A DNA stretch of 64,000 bases from the IMG/VR virus record IMGVR_UViG_3300035698_018317, positions 62,001 to 126,000 of that record. One strand, written 5' to 3'. This stretch comes from a virus. A program made the translations under genes and the position numbers. Below the pieces are notes generated by a model that saw only the letters and a list, made by a program, of their open reading frames with translations, made no database searches and had not been told where the DNA came from. Shown piece after piece: positions 31,793-56,267 of the stretch; the first letter of the stretch is position 1; every line of letters starts with the position of its first letter.

Positions 31793-32509
31793 ATGAAAGA
31801 CTTAGTGATAGGACTCTGTACCGTAAGTAATAGAAAAACAAGTTATCTTCAGGCAACACTGGATAGTTTGATAAATAATGCCAATAATAAAAACGGCATG
31901 GTAATAAGATTGCATCATTGTGATTTAAAAGGACAAGACGAACTTTGTGTTGGGTCCAATCAAGTTAAAATAGAAGATTTGTATGAAGATGAAATCAATT
32001 CAGGATTTTTGCAAATTATTCGAATAGACAACCACCCTGTGTTTGAAAACCTACCAAATAATTTTGGAGATAATGACACCAGAGTGTCTTGGAGAACAAA
32101 ACAGTGTTATGACTATAGTGAAGCATTTCGATTGAGTCATAATATCGGTAAGCATTACATGCATATTGAAGATGACTTAATTGCTTGCAAGGGTTACGAT
32201 TCGTACATCAGGAGCGAAATAGAAAAAGCAAATAATAATTGGGCGACTATATGGATGGCTCAAGGTGGGTTTATTGGCTGGTTATTCAGAAATAAAGACT
32301 TACCTAAAATGTCTAGCATGTTAAATGTTTTTAAGGAAGAAATGCCGTGTGATTGGATTGCTGAGTATTTTGCTATAATTATGCAGAGAACTGGATTACA
32401 AAATATCCATACAAACTACAGTATTTTTCAACATGTTGGAAGAGACAGAACATTACGAGATGGAAAAGATGATATTCAACCTGTAACTTTCACAAATTTT
32501 GTCGATTAA
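31793..32509 (+). CDS. GT54 (MGAT4)-like glycosyltransferase
   Basis: The 238-residue sequence follows the N-acetylglucosaminyltransferase IV pattern known mainly from animals: an N-terminal GLCTVSNRKTSYLQATLDSL, the metal-binding MHIEDDL, then GGFIGWLFRNKDLP, EMPCDWIAEYF and the C-terminal SIFQHVGRD. MGAT4 enzymes add GlcNAc to mannose of N-glycans; the phage acceptor is unknown. No signal peptide or membrane anchor is present, so it acts in the cytoplasm. It is far from the main sugar island and has its own leaderless-type promoter. Confidence 0.75.
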   Translation: MKDLVIGLCTVSNRKTSYLQATLDSLINNANNKNGMVIRLHHCDLKGQDELCVGSNQVKIEDLYEDEINSGFLQIIRIDNHPVFENLPNNFGDNDTRVSWRTKQCYDYSEAFRLSHNIGKHYMHIEDDLIACKGYDSYIRSEIEKANNNWATIWMAQGGFIGWLFRNKDLPKMSSMLNVFKEEMPCDWIAEYFAIIMQRTGLQNIHTNYSIFQHVGRDRTLRDGKDDIQPVTFTNFVD

Positions 32510-37543: not shown

Positions 37544-38482
37544 ATGAGTAAATCACAAGACACCGAAAAACCATATTTTCTACCCAAGATAAAGGTTGCC
37601 CGACCTAATAACGGGTTATCAGATGGTAGTTTCGCATCAGTGACCAGTAAGGGTTCTGGCACTATAAACTACAATGATTTCATTCATTGTCGTGAAACTT
37701 TCCAAGGTCGCTCTATGGACAAAATGTTGTTTTCTCACTCTGACAAAGTAAGTAGCGAAACAATAGCTGAGTTTATACATCTTGTTGAACAGAGACTTAA
37801 TCACAAGAATATTACTCATATTGCACCAACAAACATAAATAAAATCACCTATATTGAGCCAGCCCAATTCTGGTTGTTCAAGCCGATGAGACAATCCTTG
37901 TTCACGGCATTGTTAAGAGCGGCTTGTAATTACACGGGAAACTTCGATAAGGCGTTGTATAGCATTAATTATCTCAATGGAACCAAAAAAGCTGTAAGTC
38001 ATTTCCTAGATGGAAATACTTGGTACAAAGGAAATTCAAGCGGTTGGTTCAACGCATTCCGAAATCAAAAGGACTTGACAACTGTGTTGGGCAAGAAGCC
38101 AATTCCGAAAGCAAAGTTTACAGAATTTGTCTTTAGTCTACTTGGCAAAGAGCCAGAAGCTATTAAGAAAAGTTTGGAAAAGAAGCCTATCACACAAGAA
38201 GACTTATTAGACCACGCATTAAGTTTGCTTAAAATGAAGCCTGATTCACTGACCACTGCATTGAAAAAAGCAAGAACTTCGGATGCAGTTATAGAAAGAG
38301 AAGCGCTTAAGGAATTAGGTAAAAATAAAAATGAGATAGAAAAAGATTATAGACGGCGTAACTTTACTCATTCTGCCAAGGCTCATGACGCAAAGAATAA
38401 AGAAAAAGCAAAGACAGAAGATAAAAAGAAGAAGCCCGCTAATCCAGAACGAAGAAGGCGAAGGACTTTAAGAACCAAATGA
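37544..38482 (+). CDS. Hypothetical protein with basic C-terminus (312 aa)
   Basis: No family recognised. The start MSKSQDTEKPYFLPKI is set by the promoter just upstream; a GTG at 37433 would lie before it. The central part is helical with conserved-looking NTWYKGNSSGWFNAFRNQ; the last 50 residues are Lys/Arg-rich (NPERRRRRTLRTK). The stop overlaps the ATG of the DHQ-synthase-like gene, making an operon. Confidence 0.55.
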   Translation: MSKSQDTEKPYFLPKIKVARPNNGLSDGSFASVTSKGSGTINYNDFIHCRETFQGRSMDKMLFSHSDKVSSETIAEFIHLVEQRLNHKNITHIAPTNINKITYIEPAQFWLFKPMRQSLFTALLRAACNYTGNFDKALYSINYLNGTKKAVSHFLDGNTWYKGNSSGWFNAFRNQKDLTTVLGKKPIPKAKFTEFVFSLLGKEPEAIKKSLEKKPITQEDLLDHALSLLKMKPDSLTTALKKARTSDAVIEREALKELGKNKNEIEKDYRRRNFTHSAKAHDAKNKEKAKTEDKKKKPANPERRRRRTLRTK

Positions 38483-39564
38483 GAACTTTAGCAATAAAAA
38501 ATTCCAAACAGGGTAATGATTTTAATGTAGTTATATCTGATTCGGCTCTAGCTGAAATGGAAGAATACGTTAAAGTTAACCACCCAAAAACGACTGTCTA
38601 CATCATATATGACCAAATCTTAGGAGATAAGATAGACCTACTTCGGAAAGATACAGTTTTCATTCCTTACCCCAAGACAAGAAGCTACAGAGAATCGGCA
38701 GAAGAAATAAAAAATTGGAAAACAGCAACTCAATTGGTAAAGAATTTGTTTGAATATGGTATGAAAAAAAATGATGTGGTGATTGCTGTTGGTGGTGGGA
38801 CAGTTACCGACATGGCTGGATTTGTCTCTACGCTTGTTTATAGAGGGGTAAGTTGCATCTATTGTCCAACGACTATATCGTGCAGTATTGATGCGTGTAT
38901 CGGGGGAGAAACGGGAGTAAATTACGGCAAGAGAAAAAATGTTATTGGGACATTCCGAAATCCTAATGCTGTGTTCGTTGATTTAAATTTATTACAAAGT
39001 TTGTCCCATGAGGAAGTCCAAAGCGGACTTTGTACAAGCATAAAACATGCATTAATATGTGATGAAGGTTTTTTCCATTTTATACAAGAAAATTCCAATA
39101 ATATATATGAGAAAAACCACGAAACCTTAGAAGAATTGATTTATAAAAATCTGGAAATCAAAAGAACATTTGTCACATCAGATGGATTGTACAATAAAAA
39201 AATTGCTTTGGATTTAGGTCAACCTTTCTTTGATGCTTTGGTTAAACACTTTGAATATAATTATGAAGTCGCTTTAGCTATGGGATTAATAATAGTGTGT
39301 CGTGTTTCTAATAAACTCAATCTTCTTAGTGATGAAGATTTAGTTAAGATTGATGCATTACTATCATCTCATTTCAATCTTAGCATCGCAACTGGTAGAC
39401 CACCGAAAAGAGATGTAGATTACTTGATGAAATCAATACGTCGCCATAAAGAAGTAAATATAGTCCTTCCTGTTGCCATAGGTAACGTAGAGGTACATAC
39501 CGTTCCAATAAAATTATTGAACGAATCTTTAACTAGTGTATTCGTTGATGATGGCCGTTTCTAG
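38479..39564 (+). CDS. 3-dehydroquinate-synthase-like sugar phosphate cyclase lacking metal ligands
   Basis: The NAD-binding core GGGTVTDMAGF (105-115) and the segments CPTTISCSIDACIGGETGVN and KNVIGTFRNPNAVFVD are typical of the DHQ synthase superfamily, and the length is normal. The three zinc-binding positions are all changed: the Glu of AEVIK is Thr186, the His of FGHTFGH is Gln248, the His of HGEAV is Tyr262. So it either works without metal, uses other ligands, or is no longer an enzyme. It lies next to GDP-fucose genes, suggesting a sugar-modification role. Confidence 0.8.
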   Translation: MRTLAIKNSKQGNDFNVVISDSALAEMEEYVKVNHPKTTVYIIYDQILGDKIDLLRKDTVFIPYPKTRSYRESAEEIKNWKTATQLVKNLFEYGMKKNDVVIAVGGGTVTDMAGFVSTLVYRGVSCIYCPTTISCSIDACIGGETGVNYGKRKNVIGTFRNPNAVFVDLNLLQSLSHEEVQSGLCTSIKHALICDEGFFHFIQENSNNIYEKNHETLEELIYKNLEIKRTFVTSDGLYNKKIALDLGQPFFDALVKHFEYNYEVALAMGLIIVCRVSNKLNLLSDEDLVKIDALLSSHFNLSIATGRPPKRDVDYLMKSIRRHKEVNIVLPVAIGNVEVHTVPIKLLNESLTSVFVDDGRF

Positions 39565-40485
39565 TAGAATTTTATACCATTGATAAGTAGATTGAAGCCC
39601 TTCTTTAAATGGAATCTTTGCTTTCCAGCCTGCTTCTGTAATTTTTGTTACATCAAGAAGTTTTCTCATAGTCCCATCAGGTTTAGAAGTATCTGTCACA
39701 ATTTCTCCTTTAAAACCTACAACTTCTTTTATTGCTTCGGCAATTTCTAATATGGATAAATCTTCTCCGGTTCCTACATTGATAATATCAGGCGAATCAT
39801 AATTGTTCATCAAAAACAGACAGGCATAAGCCAAATCGTCTACATGAAGCATTTCTCTTCTTGGAGTTCCGGTTCCCCACATCACAACTTGTTTGTCTCC
39901 ATTCATTTTGGCTTCATGAAATTTCCTCATTAAAGCTGGTAGTAGGTGAGATGTTTCTAAGTCAAAATTGTCATTCGGGCCAAACAAGTTGGTTGGCATC
40001 AAGCAAATGCCATTGAACCCATATTGCTTGGCATAAGATTGTATCATTTGGATACCAGCTATTTTAGCAATTGCATACGCATTGTTTGTAGACTCAAGTG
40101 GTCCAGTCAGAAGATAGTCTTCCTTAATGGGTTGTGGGCATTCTTTTGGGTAAATACAAGATGAACCTAAAAACATGAGCTTTTTGACGCCATTACGATA
40201 TGCTGAATCAATAACGTTTGTTTGAATCATTAAATTATCGTATATGAAATCAGCAGGGCATGTAGAATTTGCAACAATTCCCCCTACCGTTGCTGCTGAC
40301 AAGAAAATATATTCCGGCTTACTTTCTTTAAACCATTTATCTACTTCATCACGGTTTCTCAAATCTACTTCTAATCTTGTTTTTACTTCGATGTTCGCAT
40401 ATCCATTCAGATATAGTTTTGTTACTATGGCTGACCCTACCAACCCCTTATGACCTAAAACAATTATTTTACTTTCTTTTTTCAT
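39529..40485 (-). CDS. fcl: GDP-L-fucose synthase
   Basis: The 318-residue short-chain dehydrogenase converts GDP-4-keto-6-deoxymannose to GDP-L-fucose. Visible are the NADP-binding GHKGLVGSA, the catalytic region GSSCIYP and YAIAK (Tyr-x3-Lys), and MPTNLFGPNDNFD, all typical of Fcl/WcaG. AGGATAAG precedes the ATG. It follows gmd with a one-base gap and converges on the DHQ-synthase-like gene, overlapping by 36 bases. Confidence 0.9.
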   Translation of the reverse strand: MKKESKIIVLGHKGLVGSAIVTKLYLNGYANIEVKTRLEVDLRNRDEVDKWFKESKPEYIFLSAATVGGIVANSTCPADFIYDNLMIQTNVIDSAYRNGVKKLMFLGSSCIYPKECPQPIKEDYLLTGPLESTNNAYAIAKIAGIQMIQSYAKQYGFNGICLMPTNLFGPNDNFDLETSHLLPALMRKFHEAKMNGDKQVVMWGTGTPRREMLHVDDLAYACLFLMNNYDSPDIINVGTGEDLSILEIAEAIKEVVGFKGEIVTDTSKPDGTMRKLLDVTKITEAGWKAKIPFKEGLQSTYQWYKILLETAIINEYTS

Positions 40486-40486: not shown

Positions 40487-41557
40487 TTATCTTATCCTAT
40501 AATCTAAGTTTGGCCGACAATCATACTTCATCATATCATCAATAATCATGTCAAAATCAAATTCGGGTTTCCAACCAATTTTTTTTATTTTAGAAGGATT
40601 TCCAAGAAGAACATCTACCTCTGACGGTCGGAAATACTTTTTATCTACTTTTACAACTACATTCCCAGCGTATACGCCTACTTCATCTATACCAGAACCA
40701 CTCCATTCTAAGGGCATTCCCATCCAGTCAAAACATTTTTTTACGAATTCTCTTACAGTATGTGTTTCTCCTGTGGCTACAACATAATCATCTGGTTCAT
40801 CTTGTTGTAAAATAAGCCATTGTGATTTAACATAATCCCTAGCATGTCCCCAATCTCTATAGGCATCCATATTCCCCAGTCTAAGAGGTTCTACAAACTG
40901 AAACTTTCTTTCTTTAAGTAATGATAAATTTTCGCCACACCATCTTGTTATTTTTTTTGTTACAAAAGTTTCTCCTCTGCGAGAGGATTCATGGTTGAAT
41001 AAGATTCCATTGCAAGCAAAAGAACCATAAGCTTCACGATAGTTCTTTGTAATCCAATATGCGTATAACTTAGCAGCCCCATACGGAGAACGAGGATGGA
41101 AATCATTATTTTCATCATATCCATTTTCAGGCATTTCGCTACGCCGTCCCCCAAACATCTCTGATGTAGATGCTTGGTAGAATTTAGAATTAGGGCAATT
41201 CTGGTACATAGCATCTAACAATCTAAGACATCCAATAGCGTCTACATCGGCTGTATATTCTGGAACTTCAAAAGATACCTTTACATGACTTTGAGCGGCC
41301 AGATTATAGATTTCTTTTGGCTTGATTTTAGAAATTAAAGCTGTGAGATTACTAGAATCTGTCATGTCCCCATGATGAATAAATAATTTTTTTCCATATA
41401 TCTTGTCATCTGACATGAGATGTTCTATCCGTTCCGTAGTAAAAACAGAACTTCTACGCATGATTCCATGCACTTCATATCCTTTATCTAACAAGAATTC
41501 TGCTAGATAGCTTCCATCTTGACCTGTAATGCCAGTAATAATAGCTTTCTTATTCAT
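40487..41557 (-). CDS. gmd: GDP-mannose 4,6-dehydratase
   Basis: The 356-residue SDR enzyme makes GDP-4-keto-6-deoxy-D-mannose, the substrate of the next gene product. The N-terminal [14 protein letters not shown], the GIMRRSS loop, the catalytic QASTSEMFG and [10 protein letters not shown] segments and the C-terminal [15 protein letters not shown] are those of Gmd. The ATG lies within the last codons of the upstream homing endonuclease gene. Together gmd and fcl supply GDP-fucose, or a derivative, to the phage glycosyltransferases. Confidence 0.93.
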
Positions 41558-42229: not shown

Positions 42230-42562
42230 ATGGGAGCAACAACTGGTAATCAAGGAGCTGGACATGGTTCGGCAATGGGCGCAGGCGTTAAAGGTCCGGG
42301 TAATGGAAGAAATATTTTTGTTCCGTTGGTAGCACCGCATATCGTAGCCGCTGGCGTAGTAGCCCTAGTTGGTGGAACTATAAACGTTTCGTTGGCTGGT
42401 TTGACGGGTGGAGCAGAGCTTTATTCGGTACAGGCACAGGGACCAAATGCTGTAACAGTTACAGTAAAGACAGAAACGGATGACGTTCTGACTTCAATTA
42501 CACTGGTAGGAACTGGTACTGACAGCGTAGACTACGTTGTAACAACCGTAGGCATTCAGTAA
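42230..42562 (+). CDS. Small virion-type protein, MG...GHG family (110 aa)
   Basis: A Gly/Ala/Val-rich beta protein whose N-terminus (MGATTGNQGAGHGSAM, KGPGNGRNIFVP) matches that of the 129-residue protein at 29670-30059. AAGGAG precedes the ATG and a terminator follows, as for a single strongly expressed virion gene. A head-decoration role is a guess. Confidence 0.6.
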   Translation: MGATTGNQGAGHGSAMGAGVKGPGNGRNIFVPLVAPHIVAAGVVALVGGTINVSLAGLTGGAELYSVQAQGPNAVTVTVKTETDDVLTSITLVGTGTDSVDYVVTTVGIQ

Positions 42563-43169: not shown

Positions 43170-43580
<411 letters not shown>

Positions 43581-44855: not shown

Positions 44856-45053
44856 TTGATAAATGAAGATTGTTACTGGTTTTTAGATAAAGCTGAAAGC
44901 ATAATGAAGGCACTATGCGTGGAGTGCCAACAAATAGAGAAAACTGGCTGGTTTTGGAAAGGCAGCGAGTTTGGTTATGGTGATTACCACTTAGAATGTT
45001 CTAAGTGTGGAAAGATTCTACATGAAAGTAAAAAAAATGAGACCTCCGTTTAA
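44856..45053 (+). CDS. Zinc-ribbon small protein (65 aa)
   Basis: Start TTG at 44856 is supported by AAAGGAG five bases upstream. Two CxxC pairs (CVECQQ and ECSKCGK) about 30 residues apart make a zinc ribbon. It overlaps the Dam gene by 32 bases and is probably co-expressed. Role unknown; many such ribbons act in nucleic-acid binding. Confidence 0.6.
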   Translation: MINEDCYWFLDKAESIMKALCVECQQIEKTGWFWKGSEFGYGDYHLECSKCGKILHESKKNETSV

Positions 45054-45831: not shown

Positions 45832-45850
45832 CCAACAAACTATATATTAT

Positions 45851-46039
45851 GTGAAAAGTTTTAAAAAATGGCTAGAAGATACAGGTCAAGCATGGCCTGC
45901 AACAAATGATGAACCATATGCTATGGCTGGTGTTCAGAGCAGGATTGTGAGTAACGATGCTGTAAAGGCAAAGCCTCAAGGGTTAGCTGCTAAGCTATTT
46001 GGTAAAAAGAAGAAGAGAAAAAAACATGAGAACATTTAG
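45851..46039 (+). CDS. Small basic-tailed protein with capsid-targeting-like N-terminus (62 aa)
   Basis: Begins at GTG (MKSFKKWLEDTG) and ends in a Lys-rich tail (FGKKKKRKKHENI). TATATA lies four bases before the GTG and there is no Shine-Dalgarno. The TAG stop overlaps the next gene by 14 bases, which carries the same N-terminal motif. Inferred internal head protein. Confidence 0.55.
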   Translation: MKSFKKWLEDTGQAWPATNDEPYAMAGVQSRIVSNDAVKAKPQGLAAKLFGKKKKRKKHENI

Positions 46040-46370
46040 CGAATACATGGATACCGCAAAAAGTCTTTTCGGGGATAATAAAGACACACAAGCAAAAGCC
46101 GTCATACGTTCAGGTATCAATTTAAGACCTGATTTTTGGGACGATTTTATGAGTATTACAAATGATTCAGAAGGTGTTTCTCAATTATTAGATGTTCCAA
46201 AAGAAAAAGTTTCTAATTGGGCTTCTCTCGTAAAAGATGCATTGGAAGATGTACAAGCAACAGATAATGAAGAAAAAGGTGGACGTTCAGAAATCTTGGG
46301 GACTGGCGAAGATATTGAAGACCCCAAAGGACACCCGGACCACATGGATGATTTGAGACCTACACCTTAA
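46026..46370 (+). CDS. Protein with capsid-targeting-like N-terminus (114 aa)
   Basis: MRTFSEYMDTAK starts the product; the rest is a helical domain (PDFWDDFMSITNDSEGVSQLL, DVPKEKVSNWASLVKDAL in blocks) with an acidic Gly/Asp/Pro tail. GAAGAAGAGAAA serves as ribosome-binding site. Second of a tandem pair of targeting-motif genes. Confidence 0.55.
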   Translation: MRTFSEYMDTAKSLFGDNKDTQAKAVIRSGINLRPDFWDDFMSITNDSEGVSQLLDVPKEKVSNWASLVKDALEDVQATDNEEKGGRSEILGTGEDIEDPKGHPDHMDDLRPTP

Positions 46371-47068
46371 TCCCAGCCCAAAATTTTACGTAAAACATCA
46401 TCCGGTTGAAACACGGGATTTTTATACTTTTCAATATATTTCAATTGTGCATCAACATTGTGCCCACTCTTTATTACCTTCTGCTTATACCCTTCTTTAT
46501 TTGTTATTTTAGTTGGCATACTTGGGTGATAACCCTCTCTATAGCCATCCCTGAAGAACGTTATACCTGTAACAAATAGTTCGGTAATCTTAAAAGTCAT
46601 TAAATAATCAATTGCTAACACACCAGTGTTGGCCGTACTACCACCTATGCTGTGTGTTATTTGTTTATGAATGTTTAAAGGAATATAAACTACTTCAAAT
46701 TCAGTATTAATTTCCTCTAGTGCCTTAACACGTTTTTGAACAGCCCCCGTACTTGCGGGATGCCATGTAATCAAATATTTAAGCCCTAATTCCTTAGCTG
46801 GTATCCAAATAGTATCATAAACTTCTTTTAATCTGTCTGTATATCCTTTTTGTTTAGAATGTTTATTTAAATAATCTTCAGCCAACCCTGTTACTAATGC
46901 GTCGGTGTGATGTCCAACATCTTCATAATTATCTTCACTTATTGGCAATGCGCTATTCATACGAATAACTTTATCATAATTATCTATAAGTTGTCCCGAA
47001 CCCTTCAGCGAAGGGGAGGGGCCAACCAACACAACACGTTTATCATATAAATCTTTAACTATACTCAT
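46367..47068 (-). CDS. GT29 (sialyltransferase)-like glycosyltransferase
   Basis: The 233-residue protein begins MSIVKDLYDKR and has the start RVVLVGPSPSLKGSG with YDKVIRMNSA, and later SIGGSTANTGVLAIDYL, a layout like the sialyl motifs L and S of GT29. GT29 enzymes transfer sialic acid from CMP-sialate; no sialate-synthesis gene is in the window, so the sugar is uncertain. ATG 47068 overlaps the stop of the methyltransferase gene (ATGA); an upstream ATG at 47170 lies inside that gene and is rejected. Confidence 0.7.
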   Translation of the reverse strand: MSIVKDLYDKRVVLVGPSPSLKGSGQLIDNYDKVIRMNSALPISEDNYEDVGHHTDALVTGLAEDYLNKHSKQKGYTDRLKEVYDTIWIPAKELGLKYLITWHPASTGAVQKRVKALEEINTEFEVVYIPLNIHKQITHSIGGSTANTGVLAIDYLMTFKITELFVTGITFFRDGYREGYHPSMPTKITNKEGYKQKVIKSGHNVDAQLKYIEKYKNPVFQPDDVLRKILGWD

Positions 47069-47598
47069 TTCCAAACCCCAATGTATAAAGCATGGTCTCC
47101 TTGACTTCCTTCTGAATAGATATGGACATCGGTTAATTCTGCGTATTCTTCCAGCTTTTTTTTCCACCATGGTTGATTATGTGCTGAAGGATGTAATGTC
47201 TCATCATCAACTCTATAACAAGTCTCCTTTTTGAAACAAACTGTAACAAAAAGCCTACAACTTACACGTTTCATTTCTATTAGAGATGCATCAACTAAAT
47301 GTGCATCTAAGTGTTCTAAACAATCAAAAGAAGTTAATACGTCAAACTCTTTCTCATCAAATGGTAAATTATCAGCGGAAGCTTTAACATCAGCCGATGG
47401 ACATGCTATATCAACACCTATTCTTTTTGAAACGTCTAAACCTTTAATAAATTCGTTATGGCCACATCCAATGTCAACTACAGATGAAGCATCTAACTCT
47501 TTGAATAAACACATATGGTCTCGGCTATGATTGTCATGCCCATACTGTCCATACTTGTTTTGATTATTGTAAATGTATTCGTAATGTTCTTTGGTCAT
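47065..47598 (-). CDS. Class I SAM-dependent methyltransferase
   Basis: The SAM-binding motif VVDIGCGHNEF and the later GVDIACPSADV and FDVLTSFDCLEHL are those of small Rossmann-fold methyltransferases of the Methyltransf_11 type. In a glycosyltransferase cluster it probably methylates a sugar. CAGGAG, lying in the last codons of the upstream gene, serves as ribosome-binding site. The stop overlaps the GT29-like start. Confidence 0.75.
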   Translation of the reverse strand: MTKEHYEYIYNNQNKYGQYGHDNHSRDHMCLFKELDASSVVDIGCGHNEFIKGLDVSKRIGVDIACPSADVKASADNLPFDEKEFDVLTSFDCLEHLDAHLVDASLIEMKRVSCRLFVTVCFKKETCYRVDDETLHPSAHNQPWWKKKLEEYAELTDVHIYSEGSQGDHALYIGVWK

Positions 47599-47601
47599 TT
47601 T

Positions 47602-48284
47602 TTAAACTCCTGTAGCAATAATTACATATCCTTCTTTATCGTCTTTTCCATATGATAAAAGACCTTTTCCAACCGAATCTGTAAAGTTAAGGCCCATTTG
47701 AGCTGCTAATATACCTATTACTGATTGGTCATGACGGTGCCCAAGTACTCTTGAATCCTTACTGCACGAGCCTTTATCATTCTTCCAAGGGCCACTAAAA
47801 ACTTCTTTGTTTTTACTATAATCTAACCATTTATCAAAACATTCGGTGCAAATAGGATTAGTAAAATCAAAGCCCATTACATTAGCCATGGCATGAGGCA
47901 TTTTAAATGCCTCTTCTCTACTTACTCCCATGATTTCTAAACATCTATCAGTAGTCCAATCACCACTTGTCCATCCATTCAATTGTATATAATATCCCTG
48001 TTTTTCTATTATATCCCAATGTGCGTCTAAACTCTTCTTGACATAACATCCGGCATCAATCCACAACACTTGGTCATAACCCTGCTTACGGGCTAAATCA
48101 ATGACATATGGTTTAAATGCATAATTTATTTCTTGGTGTGTTGGACATCCATCTGGGTATTTAGTATAAAATTTAACATCACCATTGTAATGGTCTAATA
48201 CACTCTTTTTTAATTTTTTTGAAGCATTTAGATATCTTTTGCTATTAGAATTATTATCAAACTAACTACTATTCTTTTTTTCAT
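47602..48284 (-). pseudogene. Frameshifted glycosyltransferase-like gene
   Basis: A good start (AGGAGAG then ATG 48284) encodes MKKRIVVS and then runs into a stop after 18 codons. One base off, the sequence continues in the frame of 47602-48258 as DNNSNSKRYLNAS ... DQVLWIDAGCYV and is similar to the intact neighbour at 48294 (ADSPRYYRCLERQ ... EKLLYIDSSLWA). A missing T in a T-run near 48260 explains it. If a sequencing error, the gene is intact (about 226 aa); otherwise only a truncated 155-aa frame is left. Confidence 0.75.
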
Positions 48285-48293
48285 AGTTCTCTC

Positions 48294-49037
48294 CTAACCG
48301 CCATTAGCTAAAAATATAATATCTTTGTATTCTGTGTCCATGCCGGGACGCCAATACAAAACATCACATATCTCGTTTTCTTTTCTTTTCCCTTTTAATC
48401 CTGTATTGACATGTCTCCAATTGGTTGCTCCTAATTGATGAGCAATTAAAGATACAGGTGCTTGCTGTCTATGCCCCAGTACTCTCTTGTCGCTACTTGC
48501 CTCACAGTTATTATTATGTCTTATTCTGTTATCTCCATCTCCTGATGCTTCTGGGCACTGCCATGTGTACCTCCAATCCCAAATTCTATCAAATAAATCA
48601 ATACCAATTTGAGAAGTTAAATCTAAACCAAAGCATCCGCCTGAAATACTGGGTATATCGAACAAAGAGTTACGGTCCTCTATACCCATTATTTCTAAAG
48701 CCTTATCCGATGTCCATTGACCCACATTCCAATCGTCATTATCTATAAAATAATATCCTTGTTTGTCTATAATATCAAATATAGGTCGGACATTGTTTAT
48801 GGCCCATAGAGACGAGTCGATATACAATAATTTCTCATATCCTTTGTCTAATAATTCTTTGAAAATATATATCTTAAAACCTAAGTGAAGTTCGTTATGT
48901 GTTGGGCCACCATAAGTCTCAGGAGTTACTGGCTGATAATCACCGTCCCAATACTTTTTGATGCTTTCTTTTTGTCGTTCTAAACATCTGTAATATCTTG
49001 GACTATCTGCATAACTAAATATTATTTCTTTACTCAT
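48294..49037 (-). CDS. GT-A-fold glycosyltransferase-like protein (247 aa)
   Basis: Paralogue of the frameshifted neighbour. The N-terminal IIFSYADSPRYYRCL, the acidic-x-acidic-like YEKLLYIDSSLW, QGYYFIDNDDWNVGQWTSD and the C-terminal KRVLGHRQQAPVSLIAHQLG are shared by both; the fold looks like a nucleotide-sugar transferase of the GT-A class. The exact family is not recognised. Its ATG overlaps the FkbM gene stop (ATGA). Confidence 0.6.
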   Translation of the reverse strand: MSKEIIFSYADSPRYYRCLERQKESIKKYWDGDYQPVTPETYGGPTHNELHLGFKIYIFKELLDKGYEKLLYIDSSLWAINNVRPIFDIIDKQGYYFIDNDDWNVGQWTSDKALEIMGIEDRNSLFDIPSISGGCFGLDLTSQIGIDLFDRIWDWRYTWQCPEASGDGDNRIRHNNNCEASSDKRVLGHRQQAPVSLIAHQLGATNWRHVNTGLKGKRKENEICDVLYWRPGMDTEYKDIIFLANGG

Positions 49038-49624
49038 CGTGTTAATATAATATTTTCAGCACTTTGATATACATTCTTATATCCAAGAGGTTCTAGCCTC
49101 TTCTCTATATCTTTAGCTCTATTATCATGTTCTACAATTATTAGAGAACACTTATCCAACTTATCCCAAGGGAACATACAAAACAATTCGTAGCTATACC
49201 CCTCTACATCAACATCAATGAAATCAAAATCATTCCCATATGTTTCTAATAATTGATTTACTGTTATTGAAGGAATGGAAATTTTTTGCCAATCGACACC
49301 ACCTGCCATCGTAGACCATTTATCTCGATGTGCCGTATCACTAGTTGAGATGGCATCTCCCTGTGAATCATAAAAATCAAGAATACCGCCTTCAGGTGTT
49401 ATGGCTGCACATAATAAATCAACATTAGGCTTCCTAACATTTTTCATCAAATTAACAAAGTTAATAGGACTGGCTTCTATTTCTAACCCAGACCATCCTA
49501 GCTCAACTAATGCAAAAGTATTTGAGAAGGTCTTTCCATCATAGGCACCTATGTCTAAAAACTTCCCTTTACGATTTTTAAAATGTTCTAATATAAATTT
49601 TTCTTCATTGTTTTGCGAATACAT
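49034..49624 (-). CDS. FkbM-type methyltransferase
   Basis: The 196-residue protein has the FkbM marks: SQNNEEKFILEHF, GKFLDIGAYDGKTFSNT, GLEIEASPINF, the central VNQLLETYGNDFDFIDVDVEGYSYEL and a final VEHDN. FkbM enzymes O-methylate sugars or polyketides. Here it would cap or decorate the glycan. AAAGGCG precedes the ATG. It overlaps the next glycosyltransferase-like gene by four bases. Confidence 0.85.
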   Translation of the reverse strand: MYSQNNEEKFILEHFKNRKGKFLDIGAYDGKTFSNTFALVELGWSGLEIEASPINFVNLMKNVRKPNVDLLCAAITPEGGILDFYDSQGDAISTSDTAHRDKWSTMAGGVDWQKISIPSITVNQLLETYGNDFDFIDVDVEGYSYELFCMFPWDKLDKCSLIIVEHDNRAKDIEKRLEPLGYKNVYQSAENIILTR

Positions 49625-49674
49625 TTAACGCCTTTCTATATGGTTTTCCAATTATTCATTGGGGGTATTTTTTA

Positions 49675-50871
49675 TTATTTTAAAACTTCCGAAAATATTA
49701 TTGCTATTCCTTTTTCTTCCAAATCTTTTGCTAGTTCAAATGTCCACTGTGTGTTACAAACCGATTTGTACACTAAGGGGCATAATTCCTTGGAAAATAA
49801 AACATTTTTGTAACTTAAAGTATTTTTTACTTCATAGGAGGAAAATACTTCAAAAGAAGATTGTCCATCATCTGCACCTGTTACTACCGATGTTGGGAAC
49901 AGTTTATGCAAATCTAATAAAATTTGAAACCAATTTTCTTTACTTTCTTGCACATCTTGCAACCACACGATTAAATCGCAACTTTCTGAAAGTAAATCAA
50001 TGGCTTTTTTAAATATTATATTTGGATTTTCTTCTTGTATTATATGAGTTTCTATTTCGGAAAATTGATGTGCATATTTTTCTGTCGTTACCACAACATC
50101 TACTGGCGGTGGGGAGACTACTTTAGACATACAAATTAACCCTATTTTATCAATATTTTTTTTGACTTTATCGGTCGAATAATAATTTTTTAGTTTAGGG
50201 TTAATTCGGGGGAATCCCTGTTTCCTTCTTGCGTTGTAATTTATGTTATCCTGATTAAAAAATGTATCATTTCTTTTAAGTAGTTTATCAGCACCCCCTA
50301 TGACATCAATCCATTTATGGACAATTATGATTTCATCAATATATTTAACAGTTCCCATTATCCTTGTGATATCTGTATATTCGTTATCACACCATAACGA
50401 AATATAAGAAGGGTGATAAATATATCCGAAATAATCATACATTTTTTTGTTCATTATTGACAACGTATTTAACGCATTGCCCACCCGCCCATCATTATAA
50501 TGTAATGCCCCAAATTGGTCATATCCAAAATGTTTTTCCATATCTCTTATTACAATTTTGTCATAATCTCGTTTTGCCGGAATCATATCATCAGATATTA
50601 GGAATAAAATTTTGAATTCTTGGCCGGACAAATTAGAATTAACAGCAGATATTTTAGTTTGAATTGGGGGGTTAAAGTGCAACTCGGTATTTGGGATATC
50701 TTTTATTTTTTTTATCATAGCCGGATTATTCATGGACTCATCATCAGCGTCGCAAGAAATTAAGAATTTATAACTATAATCTCCCGATAAAAAATCACAA
50801 TAAATCCCCAGTGTTTTTAAGAACAGTTCGGGTCTCGACCTTGTTGGATATTTAAAAAGTATATCAACCAT
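49675..50871 (-). CDS. Two-part glycosyltransferase (398 aa)
   Basis: The N-terminal 250 residues (ILFKYPTRSRPELFLKTL, SCDADDESM, FLISDDMIPA) are GT-A-like with a DxD-type metal site. The C-terminal 140 residues (LHKLFPTSVVTGADDG, TQWTFELAKDLEEKGIAI) match the C-terminal half of the GT2 protein at 52378, so this is a fusion of two transferase parts. AGG lies ahead of the ATG. Substrate unknown. Confidence 0.7.
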   Translation of the reverse strand: MVDILFKYPTRSRPELFLKTLGIYCDFLSGDYSYKFLISCDADDESMNNPAMIKKIKDIPNTELHFNPPIQTKISAVNSNLSGQEFKILFLISDDMIPAKRDYDKIVIRDMEKHFGYDQFGALHYNDGRVGNALNTLSIMNKKMYDYFGYIYHPSYISLWCDNEYTDITRIMGTVKYIDEIIIVHKWIDVIGGADKLLKRNDTFFNQDNINYNARRKQGFPRINPKLKNYYSTDKVKKNIDKIGLICMSKVVSPPPVDVVVTTEKYAHQFSEIETHIIQEENPNIIFKKAIDLLSESCDLIVWLQDVQESKENWFQILLDLHKLFPTSVVTGADDGQSSFEVFSSYEVKNTLSYKNVLFSKELCPLVYKSVCNTQWTFELAKDLEEKGIAIIFSEVLK

Positions 50872-50877
50872 AGTAAC

Positions 50878-51411
50878 CTATTTTCTATATATATAGTAGT
50901 AAATAGGCTCTGTTATAAATTCTTCTTTTTTCAACAAAGGATAAACGCCATCAGAAAAATCACGGTCTTCGCCATGATTTTTCTTCGGAAAGCCAACTTT
51001 TAACGCCAATTCTCTTTTAATCGGGTTTAAGTGATTGGGGCTTCTATAAAAGATTCCATTCTTTTCAAACCAGCCTTTATATTCAATAGAGTGTATGAAA
51101 GTTCGAGGGGATTCTCCATTGGTGGTCATGACTCCATTTATACCCACGCAATCTGGCCCAGATTTTATAGCATTTAATATGTTCGATATATAATTTGGTG
51201 ATACCAAATCATCATCATCTACAAAAGAAACATAATCACCAATAGCTTGTCTAAGAAGTTCGTTTCTTTTTGTGCCTATATCTTTTTCCCCATTATCTAT
51301 ATTGAACAATATTTCTATATCGGGCTGTCTTTGTTGTTCCAGAACGTCTAAAAGTCTATCGGCTACCTGCCACCTATTCTCCAAAGACACAATTAAAATT
51401 GATAATTTCAA
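50878..51411 (-). CDS. GT2-family glycosyltransferase (177 aa)
   Basis: A short GT2 domain: LSILIVSLENRWQVADRL, ILFNIDNGEKDIG, GDYVSFVDDDDLVSPNYI (catalytic DxD region) and a C-terminal EDRDFSDG. It starts with TTG at 51411, with TAGGAG upstream. The gene is smaller than usual GT2 enzymes but has the whole catalytic core. Confidence 0.82.
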   Translation of the reverse strand: MKLSILIVSLENRWQVADRLLDVLEQQRQPDIEILFNIDNGEKDIGTKRNELLRQAIGDYVSFVDDDDLVSPNYISNILNAIKSGPDCVGINGVMTTNGESPRTFIHSIEYKGWFEKNGIFYRSPNHLNPIKRELALKVGFPKKNHGEDRDFSDGVYPLLKKEEFITEPIYYYIYRK

Positions 51412-51420
51412 GGATAACTC

Positions 51421-52347
51421 CTATTCGGCCCAATCATCTCTGACTTTAGTAATATGTTTTTTTCCACTAAGAGTAAGGAATTGCAGCCATGTGGAAAACG
51501 AATTATTCACGGTGTATATATTTTGTGCTTTTTCAGCGACTTTACTCCAATCAAGAATGGTAAAATTAGAAATTTTTTCCATATAAATAGTTTTAATATT
51601 CTTTTCAAACTCTAGAGCGGTCTTGTCAAAACCATAATGGTAATACTCATTCACTAGATTAAATTTTTCATCTTCTTCTAAGCCAAGGATATTAGTAAAC
51701 AATTTGGATTCAGATTCTTTATCTCTTATCCAAGTAGAATTTTTATAAGTGGATGGAGGCATATTCCACAACTTATAAATGCTTTCTAGATAATCTAATT
51801 CTCCTTCAATGATGGAGGGTGCGTGTTGAATTGGAATTTCTAGTATGCCTTTTTTATTAACAAAGTTTTTACTGTCATCAGTTTTCAAATAATCAGTATT
51901 GATAAAAGTAATATAATCGGAGTGCTTATTTAAATCTGTTAAGTTATATGAAACTGGCCATATAATCTTATAACCAAGTTCTTTATAATATCTGGCTATT
52001 GGTTCTGAGAACAATATAGTTCTTAAACTTTTTGTGCAATTAAAAATGCATAGTCTGCCGGTGTTTAATTTCTCTACGTCCATTCTTGCAACTACATCTG
52101 TCTCAGAGTAAATGTTATGAATTTCTTTTAGGATTACGACTGGCGTTGGGGGAGTTGCCTGATTTCTTTTTTTTACTTTTGCTTTTGCCGTTCTTACCAT
52201 GGGTTCTCTAACCTTAACCTTCCTGTTATTTTGCTTTTTGCCAAATATCTTTTTTAGCTTGTCCGATGATATCCCTCTTTGTCCAGCGAAGACATTTCGA
52301 TTGGCGTTTATTCTTGTTGCTTTTTGATTTCTCGTATTTCTTGCCAT
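51421..52347 (-). CDS. Basic-N-terminus transferase-like protein, paralogue 1 (308 aa)
   Basis: The first 40 residues (MARNTRNQKATR, GISSDKLKKIFG) are very basic and nearly the same in the paralogue at 53675. The body has FSEPIARYYKELGYKIIWP and SDYITFIN, like the N-terminal fold of GT-B transferases, and a conserved KISNFTILDWSKV near the end. I cannot name the family. No Shine-Dalgarno; TAGAAT lies six bases before the ATG. Confidence 0.55.
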   Translation of the reverse strand: MARNTRNQKATRINANRNVFAGQRGISSDKLKKIFGKKQNNRKVKVREPMVRTAKAKVKKRNQATPPTPVVILKEIHNIYSETDVVARMDVEKLNTGRLCIFNCTKSLRTILFSEPIARYYKELGYKIIWPVSYNLTDLNKHSDYITFINTDYLKTDDSKNFVNKKGILEIPIQHAPSIIEGELDYLESIYKLWNMPPSTYKNSTWIRDKESESKLFTNILGLEEDEKFNLVNEYYHYGFDKTALEFEKNIKTIYMEKISNFTILDWSKVAEKAQNIYTVNNSFSTWLQFLTLSGKKHITKVRDDWAE

Positions 52348-52377
52348 AATATAATTCTATTCACTAATTTATCTAGT

Positions 52378-53016
52378 TTAAACATTAACCCACATGTCGC
52401 TTGTGTCAACATTGTTATGGCCCATAGAACTATCTTCTCCTATATGGGCAATCACGGATGGGGAAGAAGCAATCATCAATATTTTATCATTTGCTAACTT
52501 TTTAGAAACATCCCAATCCCATTGGCTATTATTTACTTGGGGTCGTAATTTAGGCCAAAGGTCTTTGTTAAACATTAAGTTGATTCCACCAATACTTCTT
52601 TTGGTATAATATGTTTCAAAGATTCCAGTGAATCTATGAGCAGCAGTGTTAAACCCAGTAACAACAGACCGAGGGAAGCAAGAATGTAGCTCAAACAATA
52701 TAGTAAGCCAATAAGGTTTCACTAAGGCATCCGGGTCTAGATTAATAAGAATATCAAAATCGTTTTCATAAAGATAATCAAACCCCTTCTTTATATTATA
52801 AGCTATTCCTCTATTTTTTTCATTTTCCAGCCTTACAATTGGAACATTCTCTATTTCGAAACTGTTGAATATGTTTAGAGTATCCTTATTTGTGCTGCAA
52901 TCATCCAAAAGAACAATGGTTAAATCATCTGGCAAGTAGCTATTTTTGATGCTATCAAGCGTCTTTTGAAGATACTCTGGTCTGTCAAATAAAGTTATTA
53001 ATAATCCTGTTTTCAT
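52378..53016 (-). CDS. GT2-family glycosyltransferase (212 aa)
   Basis: The GT2 core is complete: LLITLFDRPEYLQKTLDSI, VLLDDCSTNKDTL, ENEKNRGIAYNIKKGFDYL and the DxD-like NLDPDALVKPYW. The C-terminal half also occurs as the second domain of the protein at 49675. TAGGAT precedes the ATG; the stop region of the upstream gene overlaps by four bases. Confidence 0.85.
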   Translation of the reverse strand: MKTGLLITLFDRPEYLQKTLDSIKNSYLPDDLTIVLLDDCSTNKDTLNIFNSFEIENVPIVRLENEKNRGIAYNIKKGFDYLYENDFDILINLDPDALVKPYWLTILFELHSCFPRSVVTGFNTAAHRFTGIFETYYTKRSIGGINLMFNKDLWPKLRPQVNNSQWDWDVSKKLANDKILMIASSPSVIAHIGEDSSMGHNNVDTSDMWVNV

Positions 53017-53675
53017 TTTATCCTACTTTTATACAAAGAGAAATCCATTTGTCCGAATGTGGCTTCTAAACTAATGTCTCTCATTGCAATTCTTTTTCCA
53101 GTTAAATACATATCATTTAAATAATCAGTCCCAAGCCCTTCTTCATCAAGTATAGGTATGATTTTAGGGGTTTCTGAACAAACAATTTCACAATCAGGCA
53201 TATCGTTTTTCACACAATCTTCTAATTCTTCAAAAGAGGAAAAATCAGATAGAAGAATAGTTCTTCCTATTTCTTTTGTCTTAAATACTTGGCCATTTAA
53301 TTCTATAGGGTATCGCCAATTTCCTTTTTGTTTTTTTATTCTTATCGAAAGATAAGTATTATCTTCCAAGTCTTCTAAGCTAAAAGAGCTTCTAAACAGA
53401 TAAATATCGTGTAAAAAAATGGAGTAAGCAGAAGATGGGTTAATTACATCAAGAAGCTGTTCTTTTAAATTAGCTTTTCTTTTTTGTATTAAAATATTTG
53501 GATATAGGGACGATAAGATTTTAAACGAGTTATCAAATCTATTATTTGTCGCCTCATACAGAACAGTTATGGAATGAGATTTGTAATTGTAAAAATATTT
53601 TTCAATGCTCCTGAGAAGCAAATCAACTTGGCACGCCCTGTCTTTGGAAAGTATGATTAAGTTGAATTTTTTCAT
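53013..53675 (-). CDS. Glycosyltransferase-like protein (220 aa)
   Basis: The N-terminal NLIILSKDRACQVDLLLRSI and VLYEATNNRFDNSF fit the GT-A start, and IFLHDIYLF may be a metal site. No subfamily recognised. Translation is coupled to the upstream gene (TAATG). Part of the sugar operon. Confidence 0.6.
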   Translation of the reverse strand: MKKFNLIILSKDRACQVDLLLRSIEKYFYNYKSHSITVLYEATNNRFDNSFKILSSLYPNILIQKRKANLKEQLLDVINPSSAYSIFLHDIYLFRSSFSLEDLEDNTYLSIRIKKQKGNWRYPIELNGQVFKTKEIGRTILLSDFSSFEELEDCVKNDMPDCEIVCSETPKIIPILDEEGLGTDYLNDMYLTGKRIAMRDISLEATFGQMDFSLYKSRIK

Positions 53676-54700
53676 TATACATTATGGATTTTATATTTGC
53701 TTTTAAAAGGAACTTCTCCAAATGCATCTTCATTAGATTTAAGATGTAAATGAAGCTCCTTGTTCTTTAGGTTCAAGAGTTCAATCCAATACATAATAGC
53801 ACTAGGTGCTACATGTATTGTTGTGGCATTTTCTATTACTTTGCTCCAATCTAAAAGCGTAAAATTTGATATTTTTTCTACGTATACGTTTTTGAGGTCA
53901 TTGCCTGTTTCTATATCAATTCGCTTACTGAAATCTCTATTTAAAAACTCACTAACCAAATTGTATTTATCTCCGTCTTTAAGTCTAAGGATGCTAGAGA
54001 AAAGCTTGTCTTCTGCCTTTTCATCTCTTTTCCAACTGGATTCTTGCCATTTATTTATAGACATATTCCACAAATCATATTTACTTTTCATCTTGTGGTC
54101 TTCTGAAACCGCCTTTAGCTCATTAGAATATATTAAAGGAACAATTAGGGCATCTTGTATATTGAAAAAATCTTTATGCCCATAATTAAATTTCATAAGT
54201 TTTTTATCTATAAACGTAATATAATCAGAGTGTTTGTTCATTCCAGAATATACAGAATCTAATGGCCATATTACTTTATAACCAAGTTCGTGATAATATC
54301 GAGCTATTGGTTCTGAAAAAAGTATTTCCTTAATAGAAACTGGTTGATTAATATAGCAGATTCTATTGTGGTTTAAAGCTTCAATTCTCATTCGTTCTTC
54401 GACATCTGCCTTATCGTACACATGTAAAGGCTGAGCGGTTTCAAGTGCTTTGATTGTAGGTGTTGGTGTTTTTCTTTTTCTTGTATGACGAACCATTTCT
54501 TTATTCACTCCCTTTTTCAGGTGCTTTTTTTGTATTCTTTCCATCCTGTCAGCAGTGGATGTGGATGGGGTTCGGGCAGCATTTGGTTTAGAACCAAATA
54601 TCTTTCTTAATTTGTCCGATGATATTCCTTTTTGGCCTACGAAGACTTTTCTGTTGACATGTGCTCTGGTTGCTTTTTGATTTCTTGTATTTCTTGCCAT
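53675..54700 (-). CDS. Basic-N-terminus transferase-like protein, paralogue 2 (341 aa)
   Basis: Paralogue of the protein at 51421, with the same start (MARNTRNQKATR) and the same core (FSEPIARYYHELGYKVIWP, SDYITFID, KISNFTLLDWSKV). The basic region is longer here (RIQKKHLKKGVNKEMVRHTRKRK in blocks). The two genes lie around the GT2 gene, so the arrangement resulted from duplication of a module. TAGAAT ends seven bases before the ATG, and there is no Shine-Dalgarno. Confidence 0.55.
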   Translation of the reverse strand: MARNTRNQKATRAHVNRKVFVGQKGISSDKLRKIFGSKPNAARTPSTSTADRMERIQKKHLKKGVNKEMVRHTRKRKTPTPTIKALETAQPLHVYDKADVEERMRIEALNHNRICYINQPVSIKEILFSEPIARYYHELGYKVIWPLDSVYSGMNKHSDYITFIDKKLMKFNYGHKDFFNIQDALIVPLIYSNELKAVSEDHKMKSKYDLWNMSINKWQESSWKRDEKAEDKLFSSILRLKDGDKYNLVSEFLNRDFSKRIDIETGNDLKNVYVEKISNFTLLDWSKVIENATTIHVAPSAIMYWIELLNLKNKELHLHLKSNEDAFGEVPFKSKYKIHNV

Positions 54701-54710
54701 GACATTTATT

Positions 54711-55049
54711 CTATGCGGTTATACAATTTATTAACTTATTTTTATCTGCTGCTACGTTTTCCCAGTAATTTATAGCTAACTCTACAGCTTCGTCGTGCCA
54801 TATTAATTCGTTTTCAAGCCAAATGCCGTTAAACGTATCTTGATAATTGAGTATTGTATTGTTAGGATTTGGGTCAACTAAATTAATTTTCTTTATAGTA
54901 ACTTTTTCCAAATCTCCTCTTAATGCTCTCCCCAAAACATATGGTGAAGAGCCTACTGCAAAAGTACAAGAGTAATTTTGTATTAATTCTATCGTGTTAA
55001 CACAACCAAGTATTAATACCCCACCCGAGGCTGTATATGTAAAATTCAT
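54711..55049 (-). CDS. Hypothetical small protein (112 aa)
   Basis: No family recognised. Beta-rich N-terminus (FTYTASGGVLILGCVNTI) and a helical C-terminus. The start overlaps the stop of the gene at 55046 (ATGA). Possibly virion associated. Confidence 0.45.
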   Translation of the reverse strand: MNFTYTASGGVLILGCVNTIELIQNYSCTFAVGSSPYVLGRALRGDLEKVTIKKINLVDPNPNNTILNYQDTFNGIWLENELIWHDEAVELAINYWENVAADKNKLINCITA

Positions 55050-55267
55050 TGTAAATCCTCCAACCTATTTATTTTGCCTTGAATAACCACAAGCTCTTCT
55101 TCTATGGCGGCTGAAGAATAAACAGTTTCAACCACTAAAACACCACTATCCCCGTCTGCGACTGGTGTAAGAGAACTTAATCTATTCACTCTGCTTGTGG
55201 CTTCATTGATATCTAGTATTAATTCATCCACATTATATTCTGTTTTTACTTGTTTGATGCAGCCCAT
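55046..55267 (-). CDS. Hypothetical small protein (73 aa)
   Basis: A short protein starting MGCIKQVKTEY with a helical end (EEELVVIQGKINRLEDL). No family recognised. GGAGAG precedes the ATG. First gene of the minus-strand run that goes into the sugar island. Confidence 0.45.
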   Translation of the reverse strand: MGCIKQVKTEYNVDELILDINEATSRVNRLSSLTPVADGDSGVLVVETVYSSAAIEEELVVIQGKINRLEDLQ

Positions 55268-55322: not shown

Positions 55323-56267
55323 ATGAAAAACAAACAGAAGTGTTATCTTCCGCCTTATGTGGTTGACCCTATAATTTCTTTACTATCTGCTCAACAAAAA
55401 ATAGGTTGGAATATTACTGCTTTTAATCTTCCCAGTGCTTGGAAAGAAACAAGTGGAGAAGGAGTAAAAGTAGCTATAATTGATTCTGGTTGTGATTTAA
55501 ACCATCCAGATTTAAAAAGTAATTTATTAAAGGGCAAAAATTTTATCAACCCATCTCAACCGCCCAAAGATATGTGTGGACATGGTACTCATGTCGCTGG
55601 GACTATAGCGGCAGAGAACAACGAAATTGGCATGGTTGGAGTAGCGCCTAAATGTAAAATAATTCCCATAAAGGTTTTGGACGCTAATGGAAACGGCAAA
55701 ATGGAACATGTAGCCAAAGCCATACGTTGGGCAACAAATAATGGGGCAGATATCATTTCATTATCTTTAGGAGCGCCATCTAAATTACAACAAGTAAGAA
55801 AGGCTATTCAATATGCTGCACAGAAGGGAATACCTACTTTTTGTGCAGCGGGTAATGCAGGAAAAACGAAAGAGGTTTTTTATCCTGCGGCGTATCCAGA
55901 AACTATAGCAATTGGAAGTATTGATGAAAACTTCCAAAGGTCGTCTTTTTCAAATACAGGAAAAAATTTAGATTTCATGGCCCCCGGAGGTCAGATATTT
56001 TCTACATACCCACCCAATTGGTATTCAATATTATCTGGAACTTCTATGGCATGTCCTTTTGTTGTGGGTGTAGCTGCTTTATTGCTATCTTTCACAAGAA
56101 AAAATAATGTGTCTATATCATTAAAAACAGTTGAAGATTACAGAAAAATATTTAGACAGAATACTATTCCAGTGTCGAATAAAGAATATGCTGGAAATAA
56201 GTTCTTTCAAGGATTCGGCATCATAGACCCAAGAAAATTTGTAGAGTGGTGCAAAGATAACGCATAA
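55323..56267 (+). CDS. Intracellular-subtilisin-like serine protease (S8)
   Basis: The catalytic triad is clear: Asp54 in AIIDSGCD, His87 in GHGTHVAG and Ser in SGTSMACP, with the oxyanion Asn in AAGNAG. There is no signal peptide; instead the N-terminus has YLPPYVV, similar to the LIPY inhibitory propeptide of Bacillus intracellular subtilisins, which self-cleave. So it is probably a regulated cytoplasmic protease. TAGGAG precedes the ATG, with AATAAATA upstream. It stands alone on the + strand. Confidence 0.9.
   Translation: MKNKQKCYLPPYVVDPIISLLSAQQKIGWNITAFNLPSAWKETSGEGVKVAIIDSGCDLNHPDLKSNLLKGKNFINPSQPPKDMCGHGTHVAGTIAAENNEIGMVGVAPKCKIIPIKVLDANGNGKMEHVAKAIRWATNNGADIISLSLGAPSKLQQVRKAIQYAAQKGIPTFCAAGNAGKTKEVFYPAAYPETIAIGSIDENFQRSSFSNTGKNLDFMAPGGQIFSTYPPNWYSILSGTSMACPFVVGVAALLLSFTRKNNVSISLKTVEDYRKIFRQNTIPVSNKEYAGNKFFQGFGIIDPRKFVEWCKDNA

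Follow-up and report, generated by a model that had tools for sequence, protein, structure and literature searches.

What does a large T4-like phage assemble with a dense set of glycosyltransferases (GTs) in whose place related phages carry other genes or none, and where is the product attached? This question is raised by the 225,284-base virus record IMGVR_UViG_3300035698_018317, of which a window of 64,000 bases (positions 62001-126000) is analysed here. Positions 46367-55267 of this window hold a dense minus-strand run of 13 genes with short or overlapping junctions, hereafter the glycan island; coordinates are those of the window unless the contig, i.e. the whole record, is named. For most of the glycan islands known from phages, neither product nor target has been established. 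A preliminary description of the DNA had proposed that this ~9-kb island, together with genes elsewhere in the window, could make a fucosylated, methylated and perhaps sulfated or sialylated oligosaccharide. Its gene assignments are borne out one after another, with corrections, by Pfam, PHROGs and paralogy. A fucosylated, methylated oligosaccharide is a well supported prediction from GDP-fucose synthesis genes, GTs and two methyltransferases. We propose, with moderate confidence, that soluble enzymes build it on a virion protein.

An operon in a hypervariable slot

Apart from one frameshifted gene, all island open reading frames (ORFs) are intact and tightly packed or overlapping. The operon starts with a small ORF at its 5' end (55049..55267), recognised from the sequence, followed by a gene for a 112-aa protein at the slot edge (54711..55049). 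The right boundary is formed by an S8 subtilase-like protease gene on the plus strand (55323..56267), which served as the anchor for comparison with eight related contigs (L018-L025), where its product is 52-70% identical. The locus behaves as a hypervariable slot, because these relatives keep the subtilase side but carry differing contents next to it. Several genes on the far side of the subtilase (57957-61641) recur in them in unchanged order, with 28-49% identity. Towards the island, glycan genes are present in three lineages and absent from four, and no island transferase gene recurs as an orthologue in any of the eight slots.

The slot of L025 contains methyltransferases, a GT17 (MGAT3-family) enzyme, a sulfotransferase, a GT9 and a GmrSD-like gene. 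L021 has a single 678-aa GT2-GT9 fusion and also retains the left flank (45007-46370), including the left boundary gene next to the slot (45999..46370, plus strand). The nearly identical sequences L018 and L019 carry a sulfotransferase-like gene and a GT9 beside fibre-like genes, and no GTs were recognised at the slots of L020, L022, L023 and L024. The 112-aa edge protein has counterparts of 37-42% identity beside the subtilase in L018, L019 and L025. Exchange of the island as a block, which the preliminary description had suggested checking among relatives, is supported by this comparison, in which the relatives are distant, as their subtilases tell, and both flanks are kept in L021 alone. 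The GmrSD_N/HNH protein in the slot of L025 (L025:4376-5728) is a relative of restriction enzymes that act on modified DNA and of PADLOC NsnA.

A bacterial-type GT29 enzyme and its donor

The gene at the 3' end of the operon (46367..47068) encodes a predicted GT29-family enzyme of 233 aa, of the bacterial sialyl/ulosonyl transferase type. The mechanical ORF comprises 267 aa; we place the start at ~47068 because of the overlap with the upstream methyltransferase gene, the two sharing ATGA at 47068-47065. The protein matches PF00777 (E=8.6e-8, 32.3 bits against a cut-off of 23), and its sialylmotifs L (VGPSPSL..IDNYDKVIRMNSA...DVG) and S (ANTGVLAIDY...ELFVTG) align with those of bacterial GT29s, as do a motif-III-like aromatic region and the VS histidine, His203. 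The VS motif reads HxxxxQ, the usual glutamate being replaced by glutamine. In an AlphaFold model built from 10 aligned sequences (mean pLDDT 79), the protein has the GT-A variant 2 fold of solved sialyltransferases, and all 29 PDB matches at E<=0.001 are GT29 or GT42 sialyltransferases. The GT29-like assignment of the preliminary description therefore stands. A eukaryotic-type GT29 was ruled out, since the protein has no hydrophobic segment that could serve as a membrane anchor and no cysteines in motifs L and S. Bacterial GT29s lack the membrane anchor and the motif cysteines and are basal to the eukaryotic members (Petit et al. 2018, PMC5811610).

When bacterial and archaeal genomes and viral contigs were scanned for the motifs, bacterial GT29s were retrieved; the most similar full-length proteins found come from Salegentibacter salinarum (29% identity) and a Neomarinimicrobiota bin. 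The family is rare: three of the 396 sampled genomes from the phylum of Salegentibacter give a match, and the one above the cut-off is the genome at the centre of the sample itself. There was no tblastn match in 50,697 phage records, and the gene was not found in terminase- or subtilase-anchored relatives by a search that is positive in genomes known to hold GT29. Scans of viral contigs with the single protein gave no relatives; a motif scan and a three-sequence profile identified only L036/L043 and L164 as other viral carriers. The L164 protein is a weak match to PF00777 (E=0.004, below the cut-off), yet in the alignment it shares 29% identity with the window protein. It belongs to a glycan cluster of that IMG/VR contig (604-15114) with a cytidylyltransferase of the CMP-sugar-synthetase type, an HpcH/HpaI aldolase, and GT25 and GT4-type genes, which makes L164 a better candidate for a complete viral ulosonic-acid pathway.

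In Salegentibacter, a cytidylyltransferase and a pyruvyl transferase lie close to the GT29 gene, in a cluster of the envelope or exopolysaccharide type. A cytidylyltransferase beside GT29 both here and in L164 supports an activated ulosonic acid as the donor. The phage's own contig has no CMP-sugar synthetase by a search that was positive in all 14 control genomes, and therefore the donor (CMP-Kdo or CMP-sialic acid) would come from the host. For the same reason sialylation of the glycan, as foreseen in the preliminary description, is only a possible outcome of this gene set.

Sugar supply, a GT54-like enzyme and sulfation

Four genes outside the island that had been linked to it are confirmed by family profiles. 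GDP-mannose 4,6-dehydratase (gmd; 40487..41557, minus strand) matches TIGR01472 above the cut-off (E=1e-148), and GDP-L-fucose synthase (fcl; 39529..40485, minus strand) matches NF047922 with E=6e-141 and 469 bits, just under the 500-bit cut-off. The DHQS-like sugar-phosphate cyclase (38479..39564, plus strand) matches PF01761 (E=7e-35) and falls below the aroB equivalog cut-off. A LAGLIDADG homing endonuclease (41550-42200; PF03161, E=8e-24) overlaps the start of gmd; its homologues in L020, L022 and L024 adjoin the homologue of 42623-43141.

The fourth gene (31793..32509, plus strand), ~3.2 kb downstream of the gp23-like capsid gene, encodes a GT54/MGAT4-like glycosyltransferase of 238 aa that matches PF04666 (MGAT4_cons) over 224 residues with E=1e-39 and 136.6 bits against a cut-off of 51.5. 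Its sequence carries IEDD, WRTKQ, GFIGWLF and HVG, which correspond to motifs conserved in animal GT54 enzymes (DxD as EDD, GFIGKLF-type, HVG), as described in PMC12616123. The protein ends after the catalytic region, with neither the C-terminal lectin domain (CBM94) nor a type II membrane anchor. No match was obtained in 795 sampled bacterial genomes (396 from the phylum of Salegentibacter and 399 from that of Hydrogenovibrio) or among 50,697 annotated phage records. Among viral contigs there is only one close relative (L017/L180, 89% identity), in which the gene order around the capsid gene is the same; an exact-motif scan agrees, and recovery of this relative shows that the family search works. 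Of the transferases that the preliminary description called eukaryote-like, this one fairly deserves the term, and best among the island-associated genes, judging from its family profile and the lack of bacterial or phage matches in these searches, whereas the GT29 protein groups with bacterial GT29s. The GT54-like gene is a rare, possibly unique tailed-phage case of a family otherwise discussed from animals.

The sulfation proposed earlier is supported, but by other genes than the one first put forward. The candidate ORF within the window (19151-19729) has no family support as a sulfotransferase, whereas two true sulfotransferases are encoded elsewhere on the contig. They belong to a second glycan cluster (contig 183936-188146) that comprises a Gly_transf_sug and Sulfotransfer_2 fusion, a GT9 and a Sulfotransfer_3 protein; PHROGs names the sulfotransferase half of the fusion galactose-3-O-sulfotransferase.

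Methyltransferases, further transferases and paralogous pairs

The two methyltransferases and two GT2 enzymes of the island are recovered by Pfam as originally assigned. The S-adenosylmethionine-dependent methyltransferase (Methyltransf_11; 47065..47598; PF08241, E=4e-7), which has the 4-base overlap with the GT29 start, has a homologue in the glycan cluster of cyanophage S-SM2 (E=5e-7). The second one is FkbM-type (49034..49624; PF05050, E=4e-12; TIGR01444 above the cut-off). The GT2 enzymes have 177 aa (50878..51411; PF00535, E=2e-10; phrog_14775, E=1e-41) and 212 aa (52378..53016; PF00535, E=5e-15). The protein described as a fused GT (398 aa, 49675..50871) is correctly named, because its C-terminal part (residues 279-395) matches the 212-aa GT2 with 34% identity over 121 aa; residues 9-186 match the glycosyltransferase family phrog_14945 (E=3e-12), and the protein has Streptomyces phage GT relatives. 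A 220-aa protein that overlaps its neighbours (53013..53675), not singled out in the preliminary description, is possibly GT-A-like; it matches no Pfam family and has one homologue, in the 735-kb uncultured phage LR756501 (25% identity over 90% of the length).

Two paralogous pairs complete the operon. The first consists of an intact putative transferase of 247 aa (48294..49037) and a frameshifted paralogue (47602..48284; tblastn, 33% over 214 aa), the frame of which is broken between ~48262 and ~48228: the upstream ATG runs to a stop, and the homology continues in another frame. Pairing and frameshift are thus as described previously; the label GT-A-like could not be verified and stays a guess, because the pair has no Pfam, PHROGs, PDB or phage match.

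The second pair (copy 1, 53675..54700; copy 2, 51421..52347) had been noted for its basic N-termini, and the duplication is evident from 44% overall identity, with 29 of the first 36 residues identical. Net charge is approximately +20 in the first 80-95 residues (+20 in copy 1 and +19 in copy 2). Homologues of the conserved C-terminal part are encoded in the sugar clusters of three cyanophages, Mel-JY01 from Microcystis and S-SM2 and Sf-CH5 from Synechococcus; those of S-SM2 and Mel-JY01 are without the basic extension. The cyanophage homologues keep a GLGDILF-like loop (GLGD/GVGD) as in GT9 heptosyltransferases, whereas the window copies read SIKE and SLRT. In hhalign, the family aligns with GT9 in the C-terminal donor region only and marginally (P=0.006 for the cyanophage homologues, 0.05 for all), with controls clearly worse. 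The two proteins are therefore described as possible GT9/GT-B-like enzymes, perhaps degenerate. A structure model from the two-sequence alignment was unusable (pLDDT 36), and single-protein scans of viral contigs gave no relatives. A basic N-terminal module shared with the 678-aa fusion of L021 was considered and rejected, the similarity being no better than that of shuffles (15% and 27% of which reach the score).

Such features invite the view that acquired GT genes have piled up here and are decaying, without a single product, the paralogous pairs and the frameshift being marks of gain and loss. One member of the first pair is broken, the basic pair has lost the GxGD motif that its cyanophage homologues keep, and slot contents differ between relatives. 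However, the compact and otherwise intact operon, as well as the preserved catalytic motifs of the GT29 and GT54 proteins, argue against this view, and we consider decay an unlikely explanation.

Acceptor and role of the glycan

In the mechanism that we propose, the island would be the part of a phage glycan pathway that can be exchanged, its transferase module. Nearby genes that stay fixed would make GDP-fucose (gmd, fcl) and supply the GT54-like enzyme, and the operon (55267-46367) would add sugars in sequence through the GT2 enzymes, the fused GT, the GT29 enzyme and the paralogous pairs. FkbM and Methyltransf_11 enzymes would cap or tune the sugars by O-methylation, and sulfate may be added by the sulfotransferases of the second glycan cluster. 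No membrane-segment-like stretch was found in any island or other glycan protein; the enzymes are therefore expected to be soluble and active in the host cytosol during infection. The sugars would most likely be attached to a virion protein of the capsid, tail or fibre, so that the particles would wear a glycan coat specific to their lineage, and the replacement of slot contents between relatives is what selection for antigen- or receptor-type diversity would lead one to expect.

A virion-protein acceptor is favoured because relatives of a window GT2 adjoin capsid and tail genes and mycobacteriophages are reported to glycosylate virion proteins. The closest phage relatives of the 177-aa GT2 are actinophage GTs of ~38% identity: in LittleE, gp15 follows directly after the major capsid gene, inside a run of GT genes, and in Sixama, the relative is encoded just upstream of the major tail protein gene. 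Phage-encoded GTs are reported to modify the capsid and tail-tube proteins of actinophages (PMC12363180, PMC11256854). The location of the GT54-like gene near the gp23-like capsid gene, kept in L017, also counts in favour.

Several points weigh against this assignment. LittleE gp15 is itself a presumed rather than a proven virion-glycosylating enzyme, no enzyme attaching the first sugar to protein was identified, and the contig is without a CMP-sugar synthetase. In addition, homologues of the basic pair (in S-SM2, Sf-CH5 and Mel-JY01) belong to cyanophage clusters that have been read as systems for host polysaccharide, and the Salegentibacter GT29 relative lies in its envelope or exopolysaccharide-type cluster beside the cytidylyltransferase and pyruvyl transferase. 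The latter two observations would also fit remodelling of the host surface (lipopolysaccharide core, O-antigen or capsule), which would block the attachment of competing phages or alter host recognition, a role that Iyer et al. 2021 (PMC7824862) propose for the sugar clusters of cyanophages; GT9 heptosyltransferase-like genes on this contig and in the slots of relatives point the same way. However, no flippase, polymerase or membrane-bound priming transferase was recognised, the glycan proteins are without membrane segments, and the nearest GT2 relatives are those adjoining capsid and tail genes. We thus regard host-surface remodelling as possible, though less probable than modification of a virion protein, which we favour.

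The transferases might instead add sugars to phage DNA bases, as T4-type glucosylation does, to escape restriction. The active-site residue that distinguishes the relevant enzymes is asparagine in thymidylate synthase and aspartate in dCMP hydroxymethylase. A thymidylate-synthase homologue is indeed present in this T4-like phage (contig 222485-223429), but it keeps an asparagine aligned with that of thymidylate synthases, which makes DNA glycosylation less likely. Virus-encoded GTs that glycosylate DNA do exist (Pyle et al. 2024, as cited in PMC12619734), yet a gene set with GDP-fucose supply, two methyltransferases, sulfotransferases and GT29 is more in keeping with glycans on protein or lipid, and we consider this target quite improbable.

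Returning to the virion-protein reading, one extension of it is speculative and in our opinion unlikely to hold: the lineage might run a compact, cytosolic version of the toolkit with which the Golgi finishes glycans, with GT54 branching, GT29 capping, fucosylation, methylation and sulfation, as well as a GT17/MGAT3-like enzyme in a relative, where the slot swaps transferase cassettes and thereby creates virion glycan serotypes.

Genome setting

The virus is assigned to the T4-like phages because the order of its genes read from the ORFs (terminase, portal, protease/scaffold region, gp23-like capsid protein at 27183-28622) is T4-type. The terminase (16596-18461) matches T4-type large terminases, that of one 595-kb uncultured phage being 51% identical and those of cyanophages and Flavobacterium phages ~30%. 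By reading of the sequence, the portal (19805-22306) contains an apparent intein-like insert; in the related contig L026, ~1.2 kb interrupts the portal match at about residues 493-511, and ahead of the full-length terminase there is a second, partial copy with 72% identity. Two other relatives, L028 and L029, have ~1 kb extra between the terminase and the homologue of 18455-18838.

Outside the window, the contig encodes a type I-E CRISPR-Cas effector set (cas3, cas8e, cas11e, cas7e, cas5e and cas6e; contig 8322-16449) with two repeat arrays of ~61-base period (contig 8322-8913 and 13330-13740). Genes cas1 and cas2 were not noticed in the surrounding ORFs, no search being aimed at them, and five spacers (four complete ones of the first array and one of the second) have no credible match in the window or the fetched loci. 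Five to six small tandem paralogous proteins with signal-peptide or lipobox-like N-termini (contig 22710-25078) are possible surface or superinfection-exclusion lipoproteins.

An MKTFxEYxE-like start is found in 18 of 270 predicted proteins (0.7 expected from shuffles; 2 of 1183 at internal methionines), including those of 42623-43141, 43170-43580, 45999-46370, 18455-18838 and 58785-59111 in the window and many others on the contig; proteins of relatives have similar N-termini. The pattern is similar to the sequence that directs internal head proteins of T4 to the capsid (reviewed in PMC9026906), which suggests by analogy that a large set of phage proteins may be packaged in the head and injected. 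Two glutamine-rich proteins (43170-43580 and 43931-44542) combine long poly-Q tracts with capsid-targeting-like N-termini. A different N-terminal stretch of the MGxTTxxGxGxGSAxG type is common to four proteins, 42230-42562 and 29670-30059 in the window and contig 154329-155141 and 174350-175336; self-BLAST recovers this sharing in part, and the stretch is perhaps a common attachment or decoration module.

Comparison with known systems

The island and the genes associated with it unite families with predictable chemistry, namely GDP-fucose supply, GT29, GT54, FkbM and sulfotransferases, and the slot beside a conserved protease gene has different glycan genes or none in related phages. This combination makes testable the ideas that large T4-like phages coat their virions with sugars and that a cassette swap changes recognition.

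The nearest general counterparts are the sugar clusters of cyanophages (S-SM2; PMC7824862), which are likewise found in T4-like phages, combine dense multi-family GTs with epimerase/dehydratase genes and methyltransferases, and are polymorphic between relatives. Several GT families, nucleotide-sugar enzymes and polymorphism between related phages are all observed here, and the family of the basic pair and a methyltransferase family are shared. In contrast to these clusters, the present phage has GT29, GT54 and FkbM genes and basic N-terminal extensions, no sugar kinase/nucleotidyltransferase set was recognised in its island, and its nucleotide-sugar genes lie apart from the transferases.

Virion glycosylation in actinophages has been described for Che8, Corndog and Myrna (Freeman et al. 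2023, as reported in PMC12363180 and PMC11256854). Phage-encoded GT2 enzymes are common to both systems; the comparison of the window GT2 covers the LittleE and Sixama GTs encoded beside virion genes, the proven enzymes being those of Che8 and Corndog. The present phage differs in having far more GT families and an island ~18 kb from the capsid gene; virion glycosylation is here a prediction, and the hosts may be unrelated.

At the level of single enzymes, the GT29 protein shares with its bacterial counterparts (PMC5811610) the sialylmotifs, the absence of a transmembrane anchor and the lack of cysteines in motifs L and S; it differs in being phage-encoded, in its VS motif HxxxxQ rather than HxxxxE, and in having no linked CMP-sugar synthetase. 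Similarly, the GT54-like protein shares with animal MGAT4/GT54 (PMC12616123) the PF04666 match, the EDD metal motif, the WR-x-KQ stretch, GFIG.LF and HVG, whereas it is a soluble catalytic domain without lectin domain or anchor, encoded by a tailed phage. Phage sugar clusters of this general kind are thus already known, and it is the combination of GT54 and GT29, together with the variable slot, that sets this one apart.

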